A program made the translations under genes and the position numbers. A stretch of DNA of 56,423 nucleotides from Bacteroidota bacterium (lineage in GTDB: Bacteria > Bacteroidota > Bacteroidia > AKYH767-A > 2013-40CM-41-45). Shown here piece after piece: positions 4,405 to 30,026 of this stretch. The stretch spans positions 1-56,423 of the forward strand of contig QQVM01000007.1 in assembly GCA_003389385.1 (NCBI GenBank), read 5' to 3'. Under the pieces are notes generated by a model. The model was not told the origin of the DNA and searched no databases. It saw nothing but the letters and a program-made list of their open reading frames with translations. The stretch's first letter is position 1. Each line of letters begins with the position of its first letter.

Positions 4405-5385
4405 ATGTTTATGAAAAGGATTTGGGTATTCATCATCAGCTTGTTTCTGTGTACAGAAATGTTTGCTTTGGAAGCAAAAAAGTTAAGCAGGGAAGAGTAT
4501 ATAATGATGTATAAAGATGAAGCCATTCGCGATATGCAGCTTTCAGGCATACCGGCAAGTATTAAAATGGCCCAGGCTCTTCTTGAATCAAGCAATGGTA
4601 ACAGTCCCCTTGCACGTGAAGCAAACAATCATTTTGGAATCAAGTGTTCTAACTGGAACGGACCCGGCTACATCCAGGATGATGATACCAAGGATGAATG
4701 TTTCAGGAAATATCCTTCAGTTTTTGATTCTTACAAAGACCACAGCAACTTTTTACGTACCAGACCACGTTATGCATTTTTGTTTGAATACGACCGCACA
4801 GATTACAAAGCATGGGCGAAAGGGTTGAAACAGGCTGGTTATGCAACCTCACCAACTTATGCGGAAAAATTAATCAAGATTATCGAGGATTTTGAACTTT
4901 ATAAGCTTGATACCGGAGGAATGCCCGCACCCTTGGCTTCAGCAGGAAACAAGGATATCAGCATTCCAGTTGACGCCCCGGTTCCGGTTAGAGAAACAGT
5001 GATTCATAAGCCTTCTGTTTCTGAGGGTATTTCAATCGGAAAAGACAGAAAAGTTTTTCAGATCAATGGTACGGATTGCATTTATGCACGTAAAGGGGAC
5101 AATCTTCAAAAAATAGCCAACGAGTTTGAGTTAGGCCACTGGCAACTTCCAAGATATAATGAAATGGACCCGACTACACCGCTTGCAGAAGGCCAAATCG
5201 TTTATTTGAAGCCAAAGAAAAACTGCGGACAAAAGAATCTGGTGATTGCACGTGAAGGGGATACTCCACATTCAATTGCACAAAGTCATGGTGTGAAGCT
5301 TAAGTCGGTACTGAAATACAATAACATCCAGGAAGGCGAAGCTTTGAAACCAGGTCAGAAGATTTATCTAAAGAAGAATTCCTGA
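4405..5385 (+). CDS. Secreted glucosaminidase (GH73) with two LysM domains
   Basis: A peptidoglycan hydrolase of the N-acetylglucosaminidase family. Residues 1-23 form a signal peptide (MKRIWVFIISLFLC core). The GH73 catalytic region spans about 28-170; the probable catalytic glutamate is Glu61 in AQALLESSNGNSPLA, followed by NNHFGIKC. Two LysM peptidoglycan-binding modules lie near residues 230-275 (YARKGDNLQKIANEF) and 282-325 (IAREGDTPHSIAQSHG). It should act in the periplasm on cell-wall glycan strands during growth or division. An equivalent start two codons downstream (4411) is as likely. The gene stops one base before the convergent gene at 5387. Confidence 0.9.
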   Translation: MFMKRIWVFIISLFLCTEMFALEAKKLSREEYIMMYKDEAIRDMQLSGIPASIKMAQALLESSNGNSPLAREANNHFGIKCSNWNGPGYIQDDDTKDECFRKYPSVFDSYKDHSNFLRTRPRYAFLFEYDRTDYKAWAKGLKQAGYATSPTYAEKLIKIIEDFELYKLDTGGMPAPLASAGNKDISIPVDAPVPVRETVIHKPSVSEGISIGKDRKVFQINGTDCIYARKGDNLQKIANEFELGHWQLPRYNEMDPTTPLAEGQIVYLKPKKNCGQKNLVIAREGDTPHSIAQSHGVKLKSVLKYNNIQEGEALKPGQKIYLKKNS

Positions 5386-5386
5386 A

Positions 5387-6898
5387 TCAGTCGAAGCTCA
5401 CTGTGATCAGATAGAATTTATTTTCTCTGTACGCAGGCATGATCAACGTTTCCTCATCAATCTGTTTTGCTGCAGTAGCTAAGACTGACACCCTTTCAAC
5501 TTCATTGAAAAGCACATCTGTTTTCTGATTTCCTTGTCCGTCAATTGATGTGATCAGGACGCTACTTCGTTCCGATACGTATTTGTTGTATATGAAGTAG
5601 AGAATTCCTCCGCTGTTAACCGAGGCATAGGAAGAATAAAAACCGCCATCATCTACGGAGCTTTGTTCCTTACTGACCAAATTTGTCCAGTGAAGCTTAC
5701 CGTCAGGATGAACTGAAATCACCATGATGCTTCCGAAATTGTAGTAGTAGTGGGATATCATGGTTTGGGTATAGTAATCCCAGTAAGTTCTTGTAGTCTG
5801 GTAAAAACTTTCAGCTGCGAGCCCTACACCTCCGTCATTCCGAAGTATAAGACGATCAATGGAGTAATTAATCAATTCTCTGCTTTTGTTTTCTTTTCTT
5901 TCTCCGATGAATTTCTGAAGATATGAAGTTGGGAATGCCGAGGTGAAAACTTTTGAATCGCTGAATGAATCTTCATCCATACTGTAGTAAAAAATTCCTG
6001 CAGTAGAATAAGTAGTTTTGTCAGAATAATATCCGCTGACTACAATTTTTTTATTGTATGCATCTGCAGCCACTGAAGCGTCAGTTAAAAACTTGTCTTC
6101 AATTTTGATTTCCTTGTCGCAATACAATCCGCTGATTCTGTTGTAGCCATGCAGAGTATAAAAGCTTTCTCCCGGGGCCTTCACTTTCTTATCTGTCAGA
6201 AATCGAATGCCCAGGACATAGAAGTTGCCTTCATTTGACAACACATAGGTGAGAGGAGCATATAAACGTGCTGGGATCTGAAAACGAATTTCTTTTTTAT
6301 AAATGTTATTCAGATCAGAATCAAGTAAAACGGCAGTGAATGACTGTGATTTTTTATCCTTTGCAATTTGGCGGTAAGTGAATGCCAGCATTTTTCTGTT
6401 TCTGGAATAGAAAACTCCGGGCAAGTTGTCATCATCAATGTTTTCGGATGCGAATTTGTCGATCAGTGCGGCAGGCCCGGAATAATTCAAAGCAGCATCA
6501 AGGTATTGTGCGAAGAAAGAATAAGTCCTGTCCTGCTTATCGAAGGTGTAAAAAACTACAAGTACTTTTTCATCAATCACTTCGAGATCAGCTATGACTC
6601 CAGCTTCCGCCGGTGCAAGTAATTCTTTCTCCGTTTGAAGGGACATAGCAGAGGAGAATTTCTGCAAAATATATTTTCTTGTTTTAAAACCAGACCTAAC
6701 TCTGGTGCTGCCAAAACTTAGATTGCTTCTTACCATGTAGAAACCGCCAGGAGCTTCTCCAAGAATTTTCAGATATGGATGTTTGTTGTCGTCACTTAAA
6801 GGAGCAGACCATTTGACCTGTTGGGAAAAGCAATCATAGTTAGACCCAATCAGGAATACTAAAGAAAGTGTTATAATGGAATTTTTAATTGCAGACAT
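5387..6898 (-). CDS. Secreted protein of unknown function, β-propeller-like
   Basis: A 503-residue exported protein. Residues 1-25 are a signal peptide (hydrophobic ITLSLVFLIGSN, cleavage near CFSQ). The rest is made of repeated short β-strand stretches alternating with polar turns. Segments such as KHPYLKILGEAPGGFYMVRSN, DLEVIDEKVLVVFYTF and KIVVSGYYSDKT have the rhythm of a β-propeller, but I cannot define blades with confidence. The middle contains a Tyr-rich stretch (TTRTYWDYYTQTMISHYYYNF). No catalytic motif is visible. It has no operon partner: the GH73 gene converges on it and psd lies downstream of an intergenic gap. The family is unknown to me. Confidence 0.7.
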   Translation of the reverse strand: MSAIKNSIITLSLVFLIGSNYDCFSQQVKWSAPLSDDNKHPYLKILGEAPGGFYMVRSNLSFGSTRVRSGFKTRKYILQKFSSAMSLQTEKELLAPAEAGVIADLEVIDEKVLVVFYTFDKQDRTYSFFAQYLDAALNYSGPAALIDKFASENIDDDNLPGVFYSRNRKMLAFTYRQIAKDKKSQSFTAVLLDSDLNNIYKKEIRFQIPARLYAPLTYVLSNEGNFYVLGIRFLTDKKVKAPGESFYTLHGYNRISGLYCDKEIKIEDKFLTDASVAADAYNKKIVVSGYYSDKTTYSTAGIFYYSMDEDSFSDSKVFTSAFPTSYLQKFIGERKENKSRELINYSIDRLILRNDGGVGLAAESFYQTTRTYWDYYTQTMISHYYYNFGSIMVISVHPDGKLHWTNLVSKEQSSVDDGGFYSSYASVNSGGILYFIYNKYVSERSSVLITSIDGQGNQKTDVLFNEVERVSVLATAAKQIDEETLIMPAYRENKFYLITVSFD

Positions 6899-7006
6899 GT
6901 AATGTATACGAAAGCAATTTATAAAATATTTTAGTGGAAGTGGAGTTTTAATTAGACCTAATCACTTTTACAAGTGATTTTAAAGTCAGAAGGTCGCCGG
7001 GGAAAA

Positions 7007-7666
7007 TCAGTTTAATTCTGCAAGCACAGTCACTCCACCCTTCACGGCTTGATTGAGTTCCACATTCACTTTTGTGCCTATGGGAAGAAAAACATCGACA
7101 CGTGAACCAAACTTAATGAATCCCATTTCTTCTCCTTGCTTTACTTCCTTTCCTTCTGTGGCATAGCACACAATTCTTCGTGCCAATGCACCTGCAATTT
7201 GTCGCATGAGCACACGTACTCCGGATGGCTTGTCTACCACTACGGTAGTCCTTTCATTTTCAGTGGATGATTTTGGGTGCCATGCAACGAGATAAAGTCC
7301 AGGGTGATATTTGCTGAAAGACACTTTGCCCTCAACCGGATATCGGTTTACATGGACGTTCACTGGCGACATGAAGATTGAGACTTGCAGCCTGCGATCC
7401 TTGAAGACTTCATTTTCTTCGGTTTCTTCAATCACAACAACTTTACCATCAGCGGGAGCGATAACCAGTTTATCACCCTGAGTGAGATTCCTTTTTGGGT
7501 GACGGAAAAACTGAAGAACTATCAAAAAGAGTGCAATGGAAATTATCAGTATGATTTGCCTTGCAATAGGATAAGATTCCAGCAGGTATTGACTCAGAAA
7601 ATGAACTGCTGTGAGAAGCAGAACTGTCAGAATCAGTGATGCGTATCCTTCCTTGTGAATGGTCAT
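7007..7666 (-). CDS. psd: Phosphatidylserine decarboxylase family protein
   Basis: It forms phosphatidylethanolamine from phosphatidylserine at the inner membrane. The 219-residue protein is of the short Psd type. Two N-terminal membrane segments lie at about 9-30 and 35-54, followed by the soluble domain with PADGKVVVIEE, the histidine segment SPVNVHVNRYP and, near the end, FIKFGSRVDVF. Autocleavage between Gly187 and Ser188 would generate the pyruvoyl group, as in the LGST-type site of the family. cdsA, two genes upstream on the same strand, makes the CDP-diacylglycerol needed for the pathway. A phosphatidylserine synthase gene is not in this window. Confidence 0.93.
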   Translation of the reverse strand: MTIHKEGYASLILTVLLLTAVHFLSQYLLESYPIARQIILIISIALFLIVLQFFRHPKRNLTQGDKLVIAPADGKVVVIEETEENEVFKDRRLQVSIFMSPVNVHVNRYPVEGKVSFSKYHPGLYLVAWHPKSSTENERTTVVVDKPSGVRVLMRQIAGALARRIVCYATEGKEVKQGEEMGFIKFGSRVDVFLPIGTKVNVELNQAVKGGVTVLAELN

Positions 7667-7725
7667 GATTTAATTTAAGTAATATTTAACAAATAAGCCA
7701 GATGTTTTATAGTCTATTTGAAGGA

Positions 7726-22862: not shown

Positions 22863-22980
22863 ATTTGATTTTATAGGGCTGCGAAATTACATATTTCAGG
22901 ACCTTCTACGGAAATAAATCAGAGAGTTACAGCTTTTTTTATCAGTCATGGTATTTGAAAGCAGGTTCAAATTCTAATAC

Positions 22981-22988
22981 TATTTTTG
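22981..22988 (+). promoter_or_regulatory. Candidate -7 element for ribF
   Basis: TATTTTTG matches TAnnTTTG exactly. It lies inside a longer in-frame extension of ribF (possible TTG at 22955), so a transcript from here supports the downstream TTG start at 23009. Confidence 0.45.
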
Positions 22989-23008
22989 CAGCGAGAAACT
23001 CATTTTTT

Positions 23009-23935
23009 TTGAAGGTATACCACTCACTTGAAGAATTTCCGGGAGCCGTCAATCCTGTTGTCACCATTGGCACATTCGACGGTGTTCATGCAGGGCATCT
23101 GATGATTATTCGCCGGCTGAAAGAAATCGCCCTTGCAACTAAAGGAGAAACGGTGGTTCTGACTTTTTTTCCGCACCCTCGCCTGGTTTTGCAACCAGAG
23201 GACAATGAGCTGAAATTAATCACTACTATGGGTGAGAGAATGTCTCTTCTGGAACGCCATGGTATTGATCATTTGATTATCCTGCCTTTCAGCCGTGAAT
23301 TTTCGCGGATGTCCGCCGTTGAGTTCGTGCGTGATATTCTTGTTCAGAAAATTGGCACCAATACTCTGGTGATTGGATACGATCATCATTTTGGAAGAAA
23401 TAGAGAAGGATCGTACAAGGATTTGGAAGAAATGGCTGTTATGTATAATTACCAGCTGGAAGAAATTCCAAAGCACGTGATCAATGAAGTGTCTGTAAGT
23501 TCTACTAAGATCAGAAAGCATTTGGCTGAAGGAGAAGTGGCTGAGGCTAACAATCTTCTGGGACATGATTTTCTTCTGGAAGGAAAAGTGATCGAGGGCG
23601 ACAGAATAGGCAAGGATCTTGGATTTCCAACTGCCAATTTCAGCATTGATGATCCATTCAAACTGATTCCAAGGCATGGCATTTATGCGGCAGAGATAGA
23701 GGTGAAGAGCAGAAAATTCAAGGGAATGCTTTATATAGGCACACGGCCTGTGGTTGATGGCATGAAGTTGAGCATTGAAGTAAACATCTTCGATTTCAAT
23801 GAAAATATCTACGGTGAGAGCATCCGTGTGTATTTGAAACACTGGATTCGTCCGGATATGAAGTTCTCAGGTCTGGATGAGCTGAAGAAGAAAATGCAGG
23901 AAGACAAGCTTTTCGCAACAAAACTTCTCTCCTGA
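23009..23935 (+). CDS. ribF: Bifunctional riboflavin kinase / FMN adenylyltransferase
   Basis: It makes FMN and then FAD from riboflavin. The N-terminal adenylyltransferase domain shows VTIGTFDGVHAGH (nucleotidyltransferase HxGH-type motif) and GYDHHFGRNREGSY; the C-terminal kinase domain shows DRIGKDLGFPTANF. The protein is about 308 residues from the TTG start at 23009 (MKVYHSLEEFPG), which is where homologues begin. A further TTG at 22955 would add 18 residues with no family resemblance and would lie upstream of the promoter element at 22981. It is followed after 26 bases by the LRR gene. Confidence 0.93.
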   Translation: MKVYHSLEEFPGAVNPVVTIGTFDGVHAGHLMIIRRLKEIALATKGETVVLTFFPHPRLVLQPEDNELKLITTMGERMSLLERHGIDHLIILPFSREFSRMSAVEFVRDILVQKIGTNTLVIGYDHHFGRNREGSYKDLEEMAVMYNYQLEEIPKHVINEVSVSSTKIRKHLAEGEVAEANNLLGHDFLLEGKVIEGDRIGKDLGFPTANFSIDDPFKLIPRHGIYAAEIEVKSRKFKGMLYIGTRPVVDGMKLSIEVNIFDFNENIYGESIRVYLKHWIRPDMKFSGLDELKKKMQEDKLFATKLLS

Positions 23936-23961
23936 CGTTTTTCATATGACAGTCGGCAGCA

Positions 23962-24579
23962 TTGAAGAATTATCTGACATACAAATTTTTACTGAGCGCA
24001 ATTGTGCTTTTGTTCACAGTTCCTCATTTATATGCGCAGTCATATATTCCGAGCGCGGAGGACAGCAATTTTATTTACAGGAGCATAGAGGAGTTGCCGG
24101 ATAATCCTCAGAAAGTTTTCCGTCTTCATTTGCCCAAGAAGAAACTGGATGCCGTACCACAGGAAGTATTCAAGCTGGTCAATCTGAGAGAACTTGTCCT
24201 GAATAAAAACAGAATCACGGAACTGCCTGCTGATATTTCAACTTTGAGAATGCTCGAAAGGCTTGACCTGAGCAATAACAAACTGCGAAGACTTCCTGAC
24301 GAGATAGGAGCGCTTGAAAGTCTGCTGTACCTTGGCCTCAACCGGAATTTAATTGAAGAATTGCCGCAAAGCATGGGCAGGCTCGAATCACTGGAAGTAT
24401 TGGAGCTTTGGGACAATGAGCTCTCAACTGTTCCGGACGAAATATTTACTCTGGACAAACTCCGAATACTTGAGCTCCGCGGAATATTGTTCAGCGATGA
24501 GGAAATAGCAAGAATCAAATCGCTTGTTCCCAAAGGAACTTCACTCTATATTTCACCGCCCTGCAACTGCGGCAACTGA
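23962..24579 (+). CDS. Secreted leucine-rich-repeat protein
   Basis: A 205-residue exported protein. Residues 1-26 form a signal peptide (FLLSAIVLLFTVPHLYAQ). From about residue 45 five to six leucine-rich repeats of about 23 residues follow, with the bacterial pattern LxxLxLxxNxIxxLPxxIxxLxxL (for example LRELVLNKNRITELP, LERLDLSNNKLRRLP, LLYLGLNRNLIEELP, LEVLELWDNELSTVP). It ends with a short cysteine-containing tail (SPPCNCGN). It probably binds a protein partner at the surface or in the periplasm. The start is TTG, as no in-frame ATG precedes the signal peptide. It may be co-transcribed with ribF. Confidence 0.85.
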   Translation: MKNYLTYKFLLSAIVLLFTVPHLYAQSYIPSAEDSNFIYRSIEELPDNPQKVFRLHLPKKKLDAVPQEVFKLVNLRELVLNKNRITELPADISTLRMLERLDLSNNKLRRLPDEIGALESLLYLGLNRNLIEELPQSMGRLESLEVLELWDNELSTVPDEIFTLDKLRILELRGILFSDEEIARIKSLVPKGTSLYISPPCNCGN

Positions 24580-24587
24580 GAACATCT

Positions 24588-27011
24588 TCAGAATTTGAAG
24601 CTGACTCCCGCGAATACGTGTCTTCCGGCCTGAGGATAGAAGTAGTTGAAGGTAGATAATTGCCCACCATACAGGTAGCTGAACGTATAAGCATTGGAAG
24701 AATACAGCTTATCAAACAAGTTGTTCACGCTGCAACTCAAAGCGAGTTCTTTCATCCATTTTGGATTCAGTGTATAGCGGAAGCGAAAATCGCTCGTGAA
24801 GTAGGCCTCAAGCATCCTGTTTTTGTTATTGGTATTATCCAGGAATTGTTCTCCTACATGTCTTCCAATCAAATCCAGCGAAACTTTTTTAACAGGTGCC
24901 CAGCTTAGCATTGCAGAGGAAATAATGGAGGGGGAAAATGCAATGTCGGTGTTTTTGTGAATGATAGTGCGCTGTATGCCTTCGTCGTAATCGTCGATGA
25001 ATTCTTCGAACAAGTCAATTTTATTTCTGCTGAAGCTTGCGTTGGCTTGCAGTGCCAGATTAGAGCGGATTTGCCAGGTGACTTGAATTTCTGCTCCTGA
25101 GCGATAGCTATTGTCTACATTTTGCCTAGTATACTCACCGACGTCATTAATTTTTCCTGTAAGAATGAGCTGGTCTTTGTACTTCATAAAATACAGGTTC
25201 AGATTCAGGTTTAGATTACTTCTTTGATATCGAATACCGGCTTCATAATCTGTCAGTTTTTCACTCCCGGGTCTGCTGGCAGGACTTGAATTGATGAAAT
25301 CATCTCTGACAGGTTCTTTGCCGGCCATGGCGATGGAAGCATAAACGGATTTTCCAGGCGAAAGCATGTAGGTAATTCCTAATCTAGGATTGTAGAAAGT
25401 CATGTTGGATTCCTGATTGATCATTTCTCCAGAAACACTTGGAGCGCTGAAGCTATAGTCAATGCGCCTGATCTGCAGGTCGAGTAAGATTTCTGTGTTT
25501 TCAATTCCACGATAAATGAACTTCAGGTATCCGCTCATATCATTTTTTTCGGCATCATTGAAATAATATCGTTGCGGAGGTGTGCCAATCACTCCCTGTT
25601 CAGACCAGATCAGCTCTCCGAAATGATCGCCCAGATATTGGTGTGCAGAGAAACTGGCATGTACATCAAAATTGTCTGATTGATAATTTCCGTTTAGTGT
25701 GAGACCAAAGAAGTCGTTGTCAAGCCAGCGTTGTCTTATAAAATCTGAATATTGAACAGTATCATTTCCGCGAATTACATCTGCGATTCCGTAATTTGAG
25801 AGCATGTCTTCATCCTGATATTCTTCATAATATCCGTTACCTCGTGTATAATGCAGGGTACTGTTGAAGCTAAATTCATTGGAGAAAGAATGTGTGTAAT
25901 GTAACTGGTAATAATCCTGCTGGTAATTATCAACCTGGTTGTCGTAGTATTTCATTTCGCCGTCTTTGTTAAAATACAAGCCTGCCGGATTAAATGTTCT
26001 GTTAGTTTTCAGTGAATCTTCAGGAACTCCATACCATGCCTGATAAGTTTTTTCTTTTCCACTGAGGATAACTGCGCGCAGAGAATTTTTACTGCCATAA
26101 TAACCGCCTGAGAGATAAAATGATTTCAAATCAGAGCTAGCGCGGTCAATGTAGCCGTCTGAAGTGATTTTACTCATTCTGCCTTCAATAGCGAATCGGT
26201 TGCTGAGCAGTCCGCTGCCGAATCCGACTGAATTACGGAATGTATTGAAACTTCCTGCGGAACTCTGGATACTGCCATAGGGCAGAGGAGAAACTTTGCT
26301 GGTCAGAATGTTTACACTGGCACCAAAAGCACCTGCACCGTTTGATGAAGTTCCAACTCCTCTCTGGATCTGAATATTGTCTACAGAAGAAGCCAAATCA
26401 GGCAGGTCAACCCAATATACCTGATGCGATTCGGCATCATTCACCGGCACTCCGTTCAGTGTAACGTTCACGCGCGTAGCGTCACTTCCGCGTATACGCA
26501 TGCCGGTATAACCGATACCGCTTCCTGCGTCTGAAGTCGTCACCAGTGAAGGTGTCATTTGCAGCAGATAAGGCATATCCTGACCGAAGTTTGACCGCTG
26601 CAGTTCTTCGGAGCTAATATTGTCGTGCGCAAAAGCGGAGTGCTTTTTATTTCTAGTGGCAGAAATTGTTACTTCTTCGGAAATATAGCTGCGTATTTTC
26701 ATTCGCACATTCACTTCGCTCATATCAGGATTGATGCTTAGCTGCTGGCTTTCGTATGAAATATGACTCAGGTGAATCCTGATTTCACTTTCATCTTTCA
26801 ATATAATTTCAAATTTTCCTTTCGAATCTGTGGTGATGTTTACATTTGAATCACCGATGCGAATGTTTACATCGCTCAGGGCTTTGTTTGTTGCTGCATC
26901 ACTTACTGTACCTGTGATTTTTTTCTGAGCTGAGCACAATGCAGGAAGCAGGATAGCAATCAATAGAAGTTTCACGGAGATATTTCCGCGTAAAAAAACA
27001 GCAATTTTCAT
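24588..27011 (-). CDS. TonB-dependent receptor under TPP riboswitch control (probable thiamine uptake)
   Basis: An 807-residue outer-membrane transporter. It has a signal peptide, then a carboxypeptidase-regulatory-like β-sandwich (ITGTVSDAATNKALSDVNIRI) of about 25-110. The plug follows (about 120-240: MRIRGSDATRVNVTLNGVPVND, then SVDNIQIQRGVGTSSNGAGAFGASVNI), then a 22-strand barrel ending in phenylalanine (FAGVSFKF). The 5' leader carries a THI-box riboswitch, so the receptor most likely takes up thiamine, its phosphates or a precursor; the ligand specificity is inferred from regulation. A PnuC permease and a NadR-like kinase lie just beyond. It probably works with TonB-ExbBD encoded elsewhere. 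Confidence 0.93.
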   Translation of the reverse strand: MKIAVFLRGNISVKLLLIAILLPALCSAQKKITGTVSDAATNKALSDVNIRIGDSNVNITTDSKGKFEIILKDESEIRIHLSHISYESQQLSINPDMSEVNVRMKIRSYISEEVTISATRNKKHSAFAHDNISSEELQRSNFGQDMPYLLQMTPSLVTTSDAGSGIGYTGMRIRGSDATRVNVTLNGVPVNDAESHQVYWVDLPDLASSVDNIQIQRGVGTSSNGAGAFGASVNILTSKVSPLPYGSIQSSAGSFNTFRNSVGFGSGLLSNRFAIEGRMSKITSDGYIDRASSDLKSFYLSGGYYGSKNSLRAVILSGKEKTYQAWYGVPEDSLKTNRTFNPAGLYFNKDGEMKYYDNQVDNYQQDYYQLHYTHSFSNEFSFNSTLHYTRGNGYYEEYQDEDMLSNYGIADVIRGNDTVQYSDFIRQRWLDNDFFGLTLNGNYQSDNFDVHASFSAHQYLGDHFGELIWSEQGVIGTPPQRYYFNDAEKNDMSGYLKFIYRGIENTEILLDLQIRRIDYSFSAPSVSGEMINQESNMTFYNPRLGITYMLSPGKSVYASIAMAGKEPVRDDFINSSPASRPGSEKLTDYEAGIRYQRSNLNLNLNLYFMKYKDQLILTGKINDVGEYTRQNVDNSYRSGAEIQVTWQIRSNLALQANASFSRNKIDLFEEFIDDYDEGIQRTIIHKNTDIAFSPSIISSAMLSWAPVKKVSLDLIGRHVGEQFLDNTNNKNRMLEAYFTSDFRFRYTLNPKWMKELALSCSVNNLFDKLYSSNAYTFSYLYGGQLSTFNYFYPQAGRHVFAGVSFKF

Positions 27012-27038
27012 TTTACATATATTTTAAGGTTAAACAAA

Positions 27039-27062
27039 TGCGCACAAAAGGGTGTGTGCGCA
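27039..27062 (-). promoter_or_regulatory. Leader hairpin between riboswitch and receptor start
   Basis: TGCGCACA (27039-27046) and TGTGCGCA (27055-27062) form an 8-bp perfect stem with an eight-base loop. It lies 27 bases upstream of the receptor start and just downstream of the TPP aptamer on the minus strand, so it is a candidate expression-platform element. The following bases are U-rich only in part, so termination is not certain. Confidence 0.5.
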
Positions 27063-27079
27063 CCGCATTTTGTTTACCT

Positions 27080-27155
27080 CGTTCCCTTCGCAGGAATTAC
27101 CCTGTGCAGGTTCGATGGGTATAATCTCAGCCCCGTGGATCAGGAGCACCCCCTT
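27080..27155 (-). ncRNA. TPP riboswitch (THI element)
   Basis: On the minus strand the conserved blocks of the thiamine pyrophosphate aptamer appear in order: GGGGGTGCT, CTGAGA (27130-27125), ACCC, GAACCTG (27113-27107), GGGTAAT (27102-27096) and GAAGGGAA (27090-27082). Spacing and helices fit the three-way junction. It sits about 70 bases upstream of the TonB-dependent receptor and should repress it when thiamine pyrophosphate is plentiful. Confidence 0.93.
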
Positions 27156-27224
27156 TATGTAATTGCAAAATTATAAATTAAAACAGAGCGGAGAAGAAAA
27201 ATTTTCATGTGTCATCAGATTTAC

Positions 27225-27232
27225 TATTTTCG
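27225..27232 (+). promoter_or_regulatory. Candidate -7 element for the 27239 gene
   Basis: TATTTTCG matches the common variant TAnnTTCG. It ends six bases before the GTG at 27239, so the start of transcription would lie at or next to that codon. This favours GTG-27239 over the GTG at 27209. Confidence 0.4.
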
Positions 27233-27238
27233 TTGCGC

Positions 27239-27766
27239 GTGAAAAAAATACTTTCTTTCTGCCTTTTGATTATTTGCATGAACATTATGAATGTTGATGC
27301 CCAGCATTATTCCAAAGGAATTGGTCTGAGGGCCGGGAAATTCAACACAGGCATCACTTTCAAGAATTTTTTCGCAACGGATAATGCTACAGCACTTCAG
27401 CTGGATTTGTATTACACCAATGTCGCATCAGGAGGATATACGCTGAAGGGTTTTTACATAAAGCAGATTCCTTTCAATGTTCCCATCATACAGCTGCCGC
27501 TCGATTTTATTTTTGGCGGAGGAATCAATATCGGATATTTTCCATTTGATCCGCAAGGTTATTACAAGAGAGAAGAAAAGGATGCGAACTATTATGATTC
27601 ATCAGTGATATCCGTTGGTGCAGGTGCGACAATTCAAATCGAATATCAGATAAAGAAAATTGCACCTGTAACCCTGGGTATAGAGGTTGTTCCTTTTTAT
27701 GAGATTATCAATCCGGGCCCGGAGTATGTGGATGTAGGTGTTTCAATACGTTATGTGTTTCGCTGA
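27239..27766 (+). CDS. Predicted outer-membrane β-barrel protein
   Basis: About 175 residues from the GTG at 27239. A signal peptide (KILSFCLLIICMNIMNVDAQ) is followed by alternating amphipathic strands with glycine turns (GIGLRAGKFNTGITF, ALQLDLYYTNVASGGYTLKGF, FGGGINIGYFPFD) and ends in an aromatic-rich strand with terminal YVFR. This is the pattern of a small outer-membrane barrel, perhaps of eight strands. The ligand is unknown. It is divergent from the TonB receptor and convergent with the NadR-like gene (16-base overlap). The alternative start 27209 adds 10 residues that would displace the signal peptide. Confidence 0.7.
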   Translation: MKKILSFCLLIICMNIMNVDAQHYSKGIGLRAGKFNTGITFKNFFATDNATALQLDLYYTNVASGGYTLKGFYIKQIPFNVPIIQLPLDFIFGGGINIGYFPFDPQGYYKREEKDANYYDSSVISVGAGATIQIEYQIKKIAPVTLGIEVVPFYEIINPGPEYVDVGVSIRYVFR

Positions 27767-28293
27767 TTCCTTTCCAGCAAATCGCTTACTGCCTGCTTCG
27801 CAAACTTGAGTCTTTGATTCCATTCACCTTTGATGATTACGAATGGAAGTTTTCTTTCCTCCAGTATATTTTTGTAACGATTAAAAAAGTACTCTCTTCT
27901 TCCCGGGTTTTCCCTTACAGGGTCATCAATGAATTCTGTGTCGGGATACGTGAGGAGATATAAATCGTAAGGATGATCATTGATGATTCCTGTGATCCAA
28001 TCCGGACTATGCCCGAATTTATCTTCCATCCAAATTTTTCCCATGATGGCCTCAGTGTCTATGATGATCATAGAGTCTTCAGTCTGCATTTCTGCTTCAA
28101 ACTGGCTTCGAATGCAGTGCAGCGCTTCCTCCTCAGAATACCTTCCATTTTTTTCAGCAAGAAAAGTTCTGCCGTATTCAGGAATCACTGTACAGTTGAA
28201 TTCCTTCCCAAGCAATTCTGACAGAGTTGATTTTCCGCTTGACTCCGGACCGATTAATGCGATGCGGATTTGTGATTTTATTTTTTCAGGCAT
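27751..28293 (-). CDS. NadR-like ATP-binding kinase
   Basis: A 180-residue P-loop kinase resembling the C-terminal ribosylnicotinamide kinase domain of NadR. Walker A is GPESSGKST at about 14-22; VIPEYGRTFLAEKNG, IIDTEAIMGKIW and DLYLLTYPDTEFIDDPVRENPGRR are family segments. The nearest characterised activity is phosphorylation of nicotinamide riboside. Its start overlaps the pnuC end by eight bases, so permease and kinase are coupled: uptake with trapping by phosphorylation. Given the TPP riboswitch nearby, thiamine is an alternative substrate, but I cannot decide. Confidence 0.85.
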   Translation of the reverse strand: MPEKIKSQIRIALIGPESSGKSTLSELLGKEFNCTVIPEYGRTFLAEKNGRYSEEEALHCIRSQFEAEMQTEDSMIIIDTEAIMGKIWMEDKFGHSPDWITGIINDHPYDLYLLTYPDTEFIDDPVRENPGRREYFFNRYKNILEERKLPFVIIKGEWNQRLKFAKQAVSDLLERNQRNT

Positions 28294-28885
28294 GCATCTT
28301 TTTTGAAGAGAGCTTCCATTCTCTCAGTCCTTTAATAGCCAGAACGAGAAATACAGCGTATAAAACTGCAGTCAATAGCAGGCCTTTATAAATATACATA
28401 GGGATGTAAATGACATCCACTACGATCCAGATTATCCAGTTTTCAATTTTCTTTCTTGCAATCAGATATTGTGCGGCAAGACTTCCTGAAGTGAGGAAAG
28501 AATCCAGCCATGGGAGGGAGGCATCAGTATATGAATTGAAAAACCATCCTACTATCAGTGTGCCTGCACATACCAGTGCAGACAGCTTAACGAGAAGTCC
28601 AAAATTGCTGAATTCAGGTATCAGAATTTGCTTGTTAACTGGAGGATGCTTCCATTTCCACCAGCCATAGGTCAAGAGCACAATGTAAAACAGCTGAAGT
28701 ACAGAGTCTGCGTATAGTCTAACTTCGGGACTGAAAAATATCCAGGCATAAAGTGCCACATTGACGATTCCAATCGGAAAACACCAGATACTTTGTTTGA
28801 TGGTGAGCCATACTCCTAATATGCCACTGAGCATGGCTAGCAATTCCAATCCAGAAATATTTTGACCCGAAAGCAGAAAATCCAT
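28286..28885 (-). CDS. PnuC/PnuT-family vitamin permease
   Basis: A 199-residue inner-membrane protein with about seven hydrophobic helices. It has the family core FPIGIVNVALYAWIFFSPEVRLYADSVLQLFYIVLLTYGWWKW, including the YGWWKW substrate-site motif, and the second-half NWIIWIVVDVIYIPMYIYKG. Family members import nicotinamide riboside (PnuC) or thiamine (PnuT) by facilitated diffusion. The upstream region shows no second THI box. The adjacent kinase would trap the substrate. Assignment to nicotinamide riboside or thiamine stays open; the neighbourhood with the TPP-regulated receptor favours thiamine. Confidence 0.88.
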   Translation of the reverse strand: MDFLLSGQNISGLELLAMLSGILGVWLTIKQSIWCFPIGIVNVALYAWIFFSPEVRLYADSVLQLFYIVLLTYGWWKWKHPPVNKQILIPEFSNFGLLVKLSALVCAGTLIVGWFFNSYTDASLPWLDSFLTSGSLAAQYLIARKKIENWIIWIVVDVIYIPMYIYKGLLLTAVLYAVFLVLAIKGLREWKLSSKKMHA

Positions 28886-29102: not shown

Positions 29103-30026
29103 ATGTGTTTACTGAACAAGTTCATTGATTCGTTACATGTCAATTTTTATGTGGCAGCAATGAAGGAAATAATTCTACCTTTTGAAGTCAACCACAGAAT
29201 CGAAAAAGCCAATGTTATCATGCTGAAGGAGCAGGGTACAGTGGAATATTGTCGTGAACGAAAGCCGGTCCCTGACAATGGAGCCTATTTTATTCCTGCA
29301 GGGCAGCCGATTTACGCCAGGCATGGTGTAAATCCAAGCATCAATTTATATGATAAAGGTTTTGAAACCGAAGAAGACAAAAACAAATTCTTTCGAACTG
29401 TTTCTGCAGATGAAGACAGGAGTAAGATTGCCGAAATGAATTTTTATCTGGTGTTCGATGTGCTATTATACAATGCAATTCCGTTTTTCGAGTTGATGGA
29501 ACTGCCTATTACATATGTTCCACCTGATGCTGAATTTGCTCATCTTGTAAAGTATGTTGCGCTTGAACACAGTCAGAACAAATTAGGAAGAGACAAGATC
29601 ATCAACAATTACATGGATGAGATCGTAATTCACTTCTGCAGGTATCTTCAGTCGCAGCCTCAGTATGCACAAAATATAAATAAGCTTGAGTATCTGACCG
29701 ACAAGAGGCTTGTGGACATTGTTAAATACATTCAGGCAAATCTTTCAAAGGATCTTTCGAATAAAGTGATTTCATCTGTCGCTTATGTTTCCGAAGACTA
29801 TGTAGGTCAGTTTTTTAAATCTCTTACCGGAAAAAATCTTCAGGATTATATAGAGAACCAAAGACTTGAAAAAGCGATGTTCCTGTTAAAAACCGAGCCG
29901 GACAATGTACAGGAGATAGCACACAAAGTAGGCTTCAAGGATCCTGCATATTTCAGCAGGAGATTCAAGATGAAATACGGGGTCAATGCAAACTCGGTAA
30001 GGAATCACGTAGTTCAGTTGGTGTAA
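29103..30026 (+). CDS. AraC-family transcriptional regulator
   Basis: A 307-residue regulator. The N-terminal part (about 20-190) is a variable sensor-like domain without recognisable motif. The C-terminal 100 residues form the AraC double helix-turn-helix: LVDIVKYIQANLSKDLSNKVISSVAYVSEDYVGQFFKSLTGKNLQDYIENQRLEKAMFLL, then IAHKVGFKDPAYFSRRFKMKYGV, the second helix-turn-helix and family signature. The target is unknown. An internal ATG 19 codons in (MKEIILPF) may be the true start. It ends 13 bases into the convergent GGGP synthase gene. Confidence 0.88.
   Translation: MCLLNKFIDSLHVNFYVAAMKEIILPFEVNHRIEKANVIMLKEQGTVEYCRERKPVPDNGAYFIPAGQPIYARHGVNPSINLYDKGFETEEDKNKFFRTVSADEDRSKIAEMNFYLVFDVLLYNAIPFFELMELPITYVPPDAEFAHLVKYVALEHSQNKLGRDKIINNYMDEIVIHFCRYLQSQPQYAQNINKLEYLTDKRLVDIVKYIQANLSKDLSNKVISSVAYVSEDYVGQFFKSLTGKNLQDYIENQRLEKAMFLLKTEPDNVQEIAHKVGFKDPAYFSRRFKMKYGVNANSVRNHVVQLV

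Follow-up and report, generated by a model that had tools for sequence, protein, structure and literature searches.

The OMthi-PnuT-Tnr3 operon of gut Bacteroides combines a thiamine pyrophosphate (TPP) riboswitch, a TonB receptor, a PnuC-family facilitator and, beside the facilitator, a phosphorylating enzyme, Tnr3, as described in PMC5613172. For Bacteroides thetaiotaomicron, the same paper assigns the receptor, PnuT and Tnr3 to TPP riboswitch control, cites a demonstration of thiamine transport by PnuT in E. coli, and reports no significant change with thiamine for the two transport operons. Here, we analyzed a locus with the same kinds of parts in a stretch of 56,423 nt (hereafter the window; contig QQVM01000007.1, assembly GCA_003389385.1) from a Bacteroidota bacterium of the order AKYH767-A, class Bacteroidia, whose genome of 3.36 Mb has a completeness rating of 100%. 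It differs from that operon in three ways: the enzyme beside the facilitator is a NadR-like P-loop kinase lacking PF04263, the riboswitch comes after the PnuC-kinase pair rather than before it, and searches of the genome that carries the window found neither ThiC nor ThiE. The locus very probably encodes a full import route for vitamin B1 in a bacterium apparently unable to make thiamine, and the pair is probably a thiamine PnuC facilitator with a thiamine kinase that replaces thiamine pyrophosphokinase (TPK), a reading drawn from sequence comparison. We propose that it is a variant of the OMthi-PnuT-Tnr3 route in which a putative non-orthologous thiamine kinase takes the place of TPK.

The original prediction, made from the DNA letters, had placed a TPP riboswitch, a TonB receptor, a PnuC permease and a NadR-like kinase in one locus, and all four were confirmed by Rfam and Pfam matches. 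The features, in the order of minus-strand transcription, are as follows.

28286–28885, minus strand: PnuC-family permease, predicted PnuT-like thiamine facilitator (PF04973, E 2e-55).
27751–28293, minus strand: NadR-like P-loop kinase of 180 amino acids, predicted thiamine kinase converting thiamine to thiamine monophosphate (TMP) (AAA_28, E 4e-30).
27239–27766, plus strand: open reading frame (ORF) of 175 amino acids converging on the kinase, between kinase and riboswitch, with homologues in relatives.
27066–27163, minus strand: TPP riboswitch aptamer (THI element) in the 5′ leader of the TonB receptor (RF00059, 55.1 bits against a gathering threshold of 54.3).
27038–27063, minus strand: GC-rich 9-bp hairpin, possible expression platform (fold of −15.6 kcal/mol).
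24588–27011, minus strand: TonB-dependent receptor, predicted outer-membrane thiamine receptor of the OMthi type (PF00593, PF07715 and PF13715).

Transcription would run from PnuC (28885–28286) through the kinase (28293–27751) and the riboswitch (27163–27066) to the receptor (27011–24588), and the reading frames of PnuC and the kinase share 8 bases. The permease and kinase had been described as lying next door to the receptor; they are indeed nearby on the same strand, but they lie upstream, not downstream, of the riboswitch, with the opposite-strand ORF in between. By this layout, the receptor is the only gene under the riboswitch. Since a similar neighbourhood recurs in relatives, the arrangement is not due to chance.

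The riboswitch match had an E value of 4.2e-8 over the whole window, covered positions 1–105 of the RF00059 model and retained an intact THI-box core. It leads into the receptor, in agreement with the original claim that the receptor is under a THI-box riboswitch. It was the sole TPP riboswitch detected genome-wide, with 150 of 185 first-look candidates scored. Binding of TPP is predicted, and the direction of its control over the receptor is presumed. Between the aptamer and the start codon, the region 27009–27075 on the minus strand, which contains the hairpin, gave a z value of −2.35 against shuffles, and the hairpin is a possible expression platform. The receptor itself contains barrel, plug and carboxypeptidase-like domains, each above the Pfam cut-off. 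In relatives, receptors like that of the window come after TPP riboswitches.

We infer the following route. The TonB receptor, TPP-controlled through the riboswitch, would carry thiamine across the outer membrane, and the PnuC-family permease would equilibrate it across the inner membrane. With ATP, the NadR-like kinase would then phosphorylate the hydroxyethyl group of thiamine, and the resulting TMP would be trapped in the cell and converted to TPP by the housekeeping enzyme ThiL. PnuT reportedly moves thiamine by facilitated diffusion, a finding attributed to Jaehme in 2018, and a trapping kinase would be expected beside a facilitator of this type. The proposed reaction, thiamine to TMP, is that of ThiK of Escherichia coli, which is a thiamine kinase of the aminoglycoside-phosphotransferase type, whereas the window kinase matches only AAA_28 in Pfam. 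The literature searched, mostly outside subscription journals, yielded no earlier account of a NadR-like kinase acting on thiamine.

Presence and absence of the pathway genes were then compared, at the sensitivity of the searches, in the host genome and 20 relatives of the same order. PnuC was present in 18 of the 21 genomes and the kinase in the identical 18, in each of which the kinase follows PnuC directly on the same strand. ThiC was found in three genomes (G011, G012 and G019) and TMP-TENI, the ThiE/TenI family, in the same three, which are exactly those lacking the pair; neither ThiC nor ThiE was found in any of the 18 pair-bearing genomes, the host included. The association of ThiC with absence of the pair gave p = 7.5e-4 in a Fisher test that ignores relatedness. 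As G011 is only 58% complete, the ThiC-bearing set without it consists of two genomes. G012 shares its family with the pair-bearing G015, and G019 with the pair-bearing G014 and G017, indicating that the switch happened within families. TPK (PF04263) was found in none of the 21 genomes, although the same search was positive in 7 of 14 control genomes, including Bacteroides ihuae. ThiL (TIGR01379), on the other hand, was above the cut-off in 20 of the 21 genomes and in 17 of the 18 with the pair. Thus, with ThiL present and neither ThiE nor TPK found, these genomes have no known source of TMP unless the kinase makes it. A thiamine kinase would close this gap, and the candidate adjoins a permease whose family includes known thiamine transporters.

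Among the 18 genomes with the pair, 17 gave a TPP riboswitch match, that of G016 being just below the cut-off. It precedes a window-like receptor in 15 of these 17, and in the other two (G005 and G010) the contig ends soon after the riboswitch. G004 has a second riboswitch, with no window-like receptor after it in the stretch examined. The distance between riboswitch and pair is at most about 3.5 kb in 12 of the 18 genomes. Among the genomes with ThiC, G012 and G019 carry a TPP riboswitch just before thiC. Separately, PnuC and the kinase occupy a single open frame of 392 codons in G002 (L029, 6941–8119, plus strand), a possible transporter-kinase fusion; as G002 is a single draft genome, the fused frame may also reflect a sequencing error.

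The comparison was extended to 61 genomes of the class, the window's included, within a phylum sample of 247. The kinase was counted as present when a stand-alone match reached at least 120 bits; G198, with one internal stop, was counted, and G210, with only a NadR-length protein, was not. The kinase without TPK was found in 40 genomes (kinase alone in 37, with ThiC in 3), both enzymes in 12 (10 with ThiC, 2 without), TPK without the kinase in 9 (8 with ThiC, 1 alone), and neither in none. The opposition between kinase and TPK gave p = 1.7e-5 in a Fisher test that, again, ignores relatedness. We consider it probable, from these genome comparisons, that hundreds of Bacteroidota proteins matching the NadR model belong to a separate thiamine kinase family, which would have displaced TPK across much of the class and would, together with PnuC, supply ThiL.

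Next, the kinase was compared with NadR. It covers positions 164–324 of the 325-position NadR model, that is, the kinase part only, and AAA_28 was the only Pfam family matched at E values up to 1e-3; neither the PF04263 catalytic domain of ThiN/Tnr3-type TPK nor an aminoglycoside-phosphotransferase-type domain was among its matches. The motif of the nicotinamide mononucleotide adenylyltransferase (NMNAT) domain of NadR, G-x-F-x-P-x-H-x-G-H, is absent from the 180-residue kinase and present in nine NadR loci. The kinase scored 91.1 bits against an NCBIfam TIGR01526 cut-off of 341.15, a strict cut-off, because the two-domain NadR of L153 also falls short of it (230.9). In an AlphaFold2 model with a mean pLDDT of 93.7, the nearest folds were NadR kinase domains (1lw7, 8x7f and 6gyf; Z 19–21, 21–24% identity), followed by thymidylate kinases (Z about 16). 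No thiamine kinase was among the 50 VIA-align structure matches listed, which excludes nothing. The window kinase thus resembles the ribosylnicotinamide kinase domain of NadR in fold, in AAA_28 membership and in its frequent position beside a PnuC, but differs in lacking the adenylyltransferase domain and in its phylogenetic position.

A maximum-likelihood tree with 57 rows placed 43 stand-alone kinases, those of the window and of Marivirga among them, on one side of a branch supported at 100/99 (all branch values quoted here are from starred branches). Ten NadR kinase domains formed a separate group (97/85), and four kinases of a family here called f9 formed a third (99/94). This tree followed a first one, in which 12 rows labelled NadR did not form one group (AU p 0.031). 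Of these, L164 has no NMNAT motif and had received its label from a stop-to-stop frame; the motif is likewise missing from L163. Both were omitted from the second tree, together with L160, L167 and L172 from outside the class, and L233 was added, a selection made after the first tree. Both trees group the window kinase with stand-alone kinases, separately from NadR, at 100/97 (42 rows) and 100/99 (43 rows). At the position of residue 88 of the window kinase, W is found in 121 of the 127 stand-alone kinases that do not belong to f9, whereas all ten members of the NadR set (L163 and the nine loci that carry the NMNAT motif) have Y or F; at residues 86 and 88, the window has K-x-W and the NadR set mostly Q or A, then Y. 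The comparison with NadR that had been suggested therefore set the kinase outside the NadR clade, without the second domain and with a different residue at position 88. We rejected W88 as a diagnostic of substrate, because it occurs in 0 of 18 f9 kinases, many of which still lie near TPP-like sites. W88 marks the clade, not a proven function.

The neighbourhoods of the kinase genes were examined in 60 of the 70 other matches over 80 bits, which were fetched, plus 80 named loci. A riboswitch model, R1, was used, which was built from 17 pairs only and finds THI-like sites below the Rfam cut-off. In 49 stand-alone loci, PnuC lies directly upstream in 36, and an R1 match and a window-like receptor are both present in 18. 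The 80 named loci gave adjacent PnuC in 49, an R1 match in 19 and a receptor as well in 18; the corresponding numbers for the 18 order loci were 18, 12 and 10. A window-like receptor near a kinase was always accompanied by an R1 match (46 of 46 loci, at least two of them duplicates). By contrast, none of the nine NadR loci with the NMNAT motif had either an R1 match or a window-like receptor within 6 kb. The co-occurrence with TPP riboswitches across Bacteroidota that the original prediction had suggested as a check was thus seen in part of the loci.

At a relaxed threshold, RF00059 matched in 10 of 10 R1-positive loci tried, once over the cut-off. Loci below the cut-off have a shortened P4/P5 or an interrupted aptamer, and the CUGAGA core is present in 34 of the 39 matches listed. 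Among the sites with a short P4/P5 are L137 (8591–8694), L147 (8120–8222), L140 (5347–5474), L224 (6512–6635), L229 (6533–6652) and L235 (6554–6659), all at 35.8–46 bits against the cut-off of 54.3, and would therefore escape standard annotation. Loci of Pedobacter and related bacteria (L119, 6911–7115; L248, 6796–6994; L271, 7423–7620) have an insertion that splits the aptamer into a P2/P3 core followed by a P4/P5 half.

The strongest single locus is that of Marivirga arenosa (L233, complete chromosome), in which the PnuC-kinase pair itself follows a TPP riboswitch. Three TPP riboswitches over the Rfam cut-off occur there in one thiamine cluster (5325–7695). The first (59.2 bits, 5325–5420) lies directly before PnuC, which is followed by the kinase, and the ATG at 5417, inside the end of the riboswitch match, was taken as the PnuC start. 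The second (63.2 bits) precedes an NMT1/THI5-like gene, and the third (60.4 bits) a TonB receptor.

The permease belongs to the PnuC family, with a PF04973 score of 187.9 bits against a cut-off of 27.3. It is related to the nicotinamide riboside transporter PnuC of Neisseria mucosa (4qtn; E 7.8e-8 over residues 13–191), while thiamine is the substrate proposed here, and the tree does not decide between them. In the PnuC tree, the window PnuC falls in an 11-member clade of its own order (100/98), joined neither to PnuC linked to nicotinamide riboside (NR) nor to TPK-linked PnuC. Two PnuC genes that adjoin TPK, and are presumably thiamine transporters because of that position, nest among the kinase-linked PnuC of other families (98/89) and not among NadR-linked ones; in the survey of TPK loci, PnuC lay within about 4 kb in only 2 of 20 loci fetched. 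NadR-linked PnuC are scattered and require five changes, of which the starred branches force only one, and L164 is mislabelled as NadR-linked in this tree. The suggested test against PnuC and PnuT clades therefore gave a divided result, in that the TPK-linked PnuC nest with the kinase-linked ones, but the clade of the window joins neither. A position with W versus F/Y in the Pnu residue comparison was dropped as a substrate marker, since the NR transporter 4qtn seems to carry Y there. The window PnuC is not itself under a riboswitch; that of Marivirga arenosa is directly under one.

Several observations weigh against a thiamine route. The permease exceeds the NCBIfam cut-off for nicotinamide riboside PnuC (92.8 vs 42.45), and the tree leaves its clade unplaced relative to NR-linked and TPK-linked PnuC. 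No TPP riboswitch was detected near the pair in 6 of the 18 pair-bearing order genomes, and the pair in the window is not under its riboswitch. Outside the order, only 6 of 23 R1-positive loci checked pass the Rfam TPP cut-off (4 of 21, plus L234 and L233), and, under the script's rule, PnuC is not adjacent in 31 of the 80 named loci. One pair-bearing genome, G002, has no ThiL over the cut-off and only a weak match, like the second, lesser matches elsewhere. The gap for a thiamine kinase in the 18 genomes follows from negative searches for ThiE and TPK, and no search was directed at ThiK, of the aminoglycoside-phosphotransferase type, or at YjbQ, which might replace ThiE. The kinase and TPK coexist in 12 genomes, all of one genus of f9, in which the kinase lies in an open frame of 733–800 codons. 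As the f9 kinases also group apart, their role may differ. Finally, one Paludibacter locus has the kinase about 460 bp before thiL, but thiL is also found on the opposite strand about 2.5 kb from the true NadR locus L155, as well as at the outer end of L127, and its nearness is therefore weak evidence.

Part of these observations would fit two vitamin systems lying side by side, namely a riboswitch-controlled thiamine receptor and an independent nicotinamide riboside PnuC with its NR kinase, which the original prediction had offered as the other option. The database names of the pair (NR PnuC and NadR), the intervening opposite-strand ORF, the pairs without a nearby riboswitch and a phylogeny compatible with NR transport by the window permease all agree with it, and true NadR genes also adjoin PnuC (in eight of the nine loci that carry the NMNAT motif; an automated count of 1 of 11 differs because it was measured from the kinase domain). 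The name of the permease, however, does not decide its substrate, since the riboswitch-controlled PnuC of Marivirga arenosa also passes the NCBIfam model for nicotinamide riboside transporters (103.8 vs 42.45). Two independent systems would leave ThiL without a known source of substrate, and would not explain why the pair is complementary to ThiC and ThiE, and the kinase to TPK, or why riboswitch matches lie near many stand-alone kinases and near none of the nine NadR loci. The lack of an NMNAT domain, the position outside the NadR clade and the riboswitch directly on the Marivirga pair argue in the same direction. A second NadR-type kinase was not found in the host genome, where one of the searches scored 14 of 35 candidates. 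We regard two separate systems as unlikely, and the genome comparison favours one thiamine route, with the unusual kinase that the original prediction had envisaged. The pattern it had named as decisive against such a route, with PnuC grouping firmly with NR transporters, all NadR residues kept and no riboswitch association, was not what we observed.

A one-step TPK, converting thiamine directly to TPP with ThiL kept for another reason, is somewhat less probable still. The replacement of TPK by the kinase in its distribution would be consistent with this activity. However, the kinase is closest in fold to NadR kinase domains and thymidylate kinases, enzymes that transfer a single phosphate. 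A TMP product also agrees with the retention of ThiL in nearly all order genomes, 18 of which gave no ThiE match. Salvage of a thiamine precursor (HMP or thiazole alcohol) by the pair is highly improbable: genes for precursor salvage can also be under TPP control, and the Marivirga cluster includes the NMT1/THI5-like gene, but ThiE/TenI-type proteins were found in 0 of the 18 pair-bearing order genomes, so that precursors could not be joined unless by YjbQ, which is named beside ThiE in PMC5613172.

Some kinases were found in longer frames. In eight f9 loci (L137, L138, L141, L142, L144, L146, L149 and L152), the kinase and DUF4301 form a fusion; these comprise seven loci of the genus with both kinase and TPK (all those fetched) and G218, from another genus without TPK; elsewhere in f9, DUF4301 is the next gene. 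DUF4301 may contribute another step to the thiamine route or regulate it. In L125, a 498-codon open frame (5077–6570, minus strand) holds the kinase and an aldose 1-epimerase domain. Around the window locus, the 175-residue ORF has a homologue at 45–65% identity in 9 of 17 relative loci, had no match in Pfam or NCBIfam searches, and has a start resembling a signal peptide. An AraC-type regulator (29103–30026, plus strand) adjoins PnuC divergently, also accompanies the pair in 9 of 17 relative loci, and may regulate it. On the other side, ribF (riboflavin kinase/FAD synthetase) and a leucine-rich-repeat protein adjoin the receptor (22955–24579, plus strand), and this order is kept in several relatives.

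If the predicted thiamine route is correct, it would fill a pathway gap, as many of the Bacteroidota examined have ThiL or TPP riboswitches while neither ThiC/ThiE nor TPK was found. The route from thiamine to TPP in such genomes, so far without a named enzyme, would gain one, and the NadR kinase fold would gain a new substrate. Model-based annotation of the pair as an NR transporter and a NAD kinase would be corrected to vitamin B1 uptake, and predictions of vitamin auxotrophy and cross-feeding would change.

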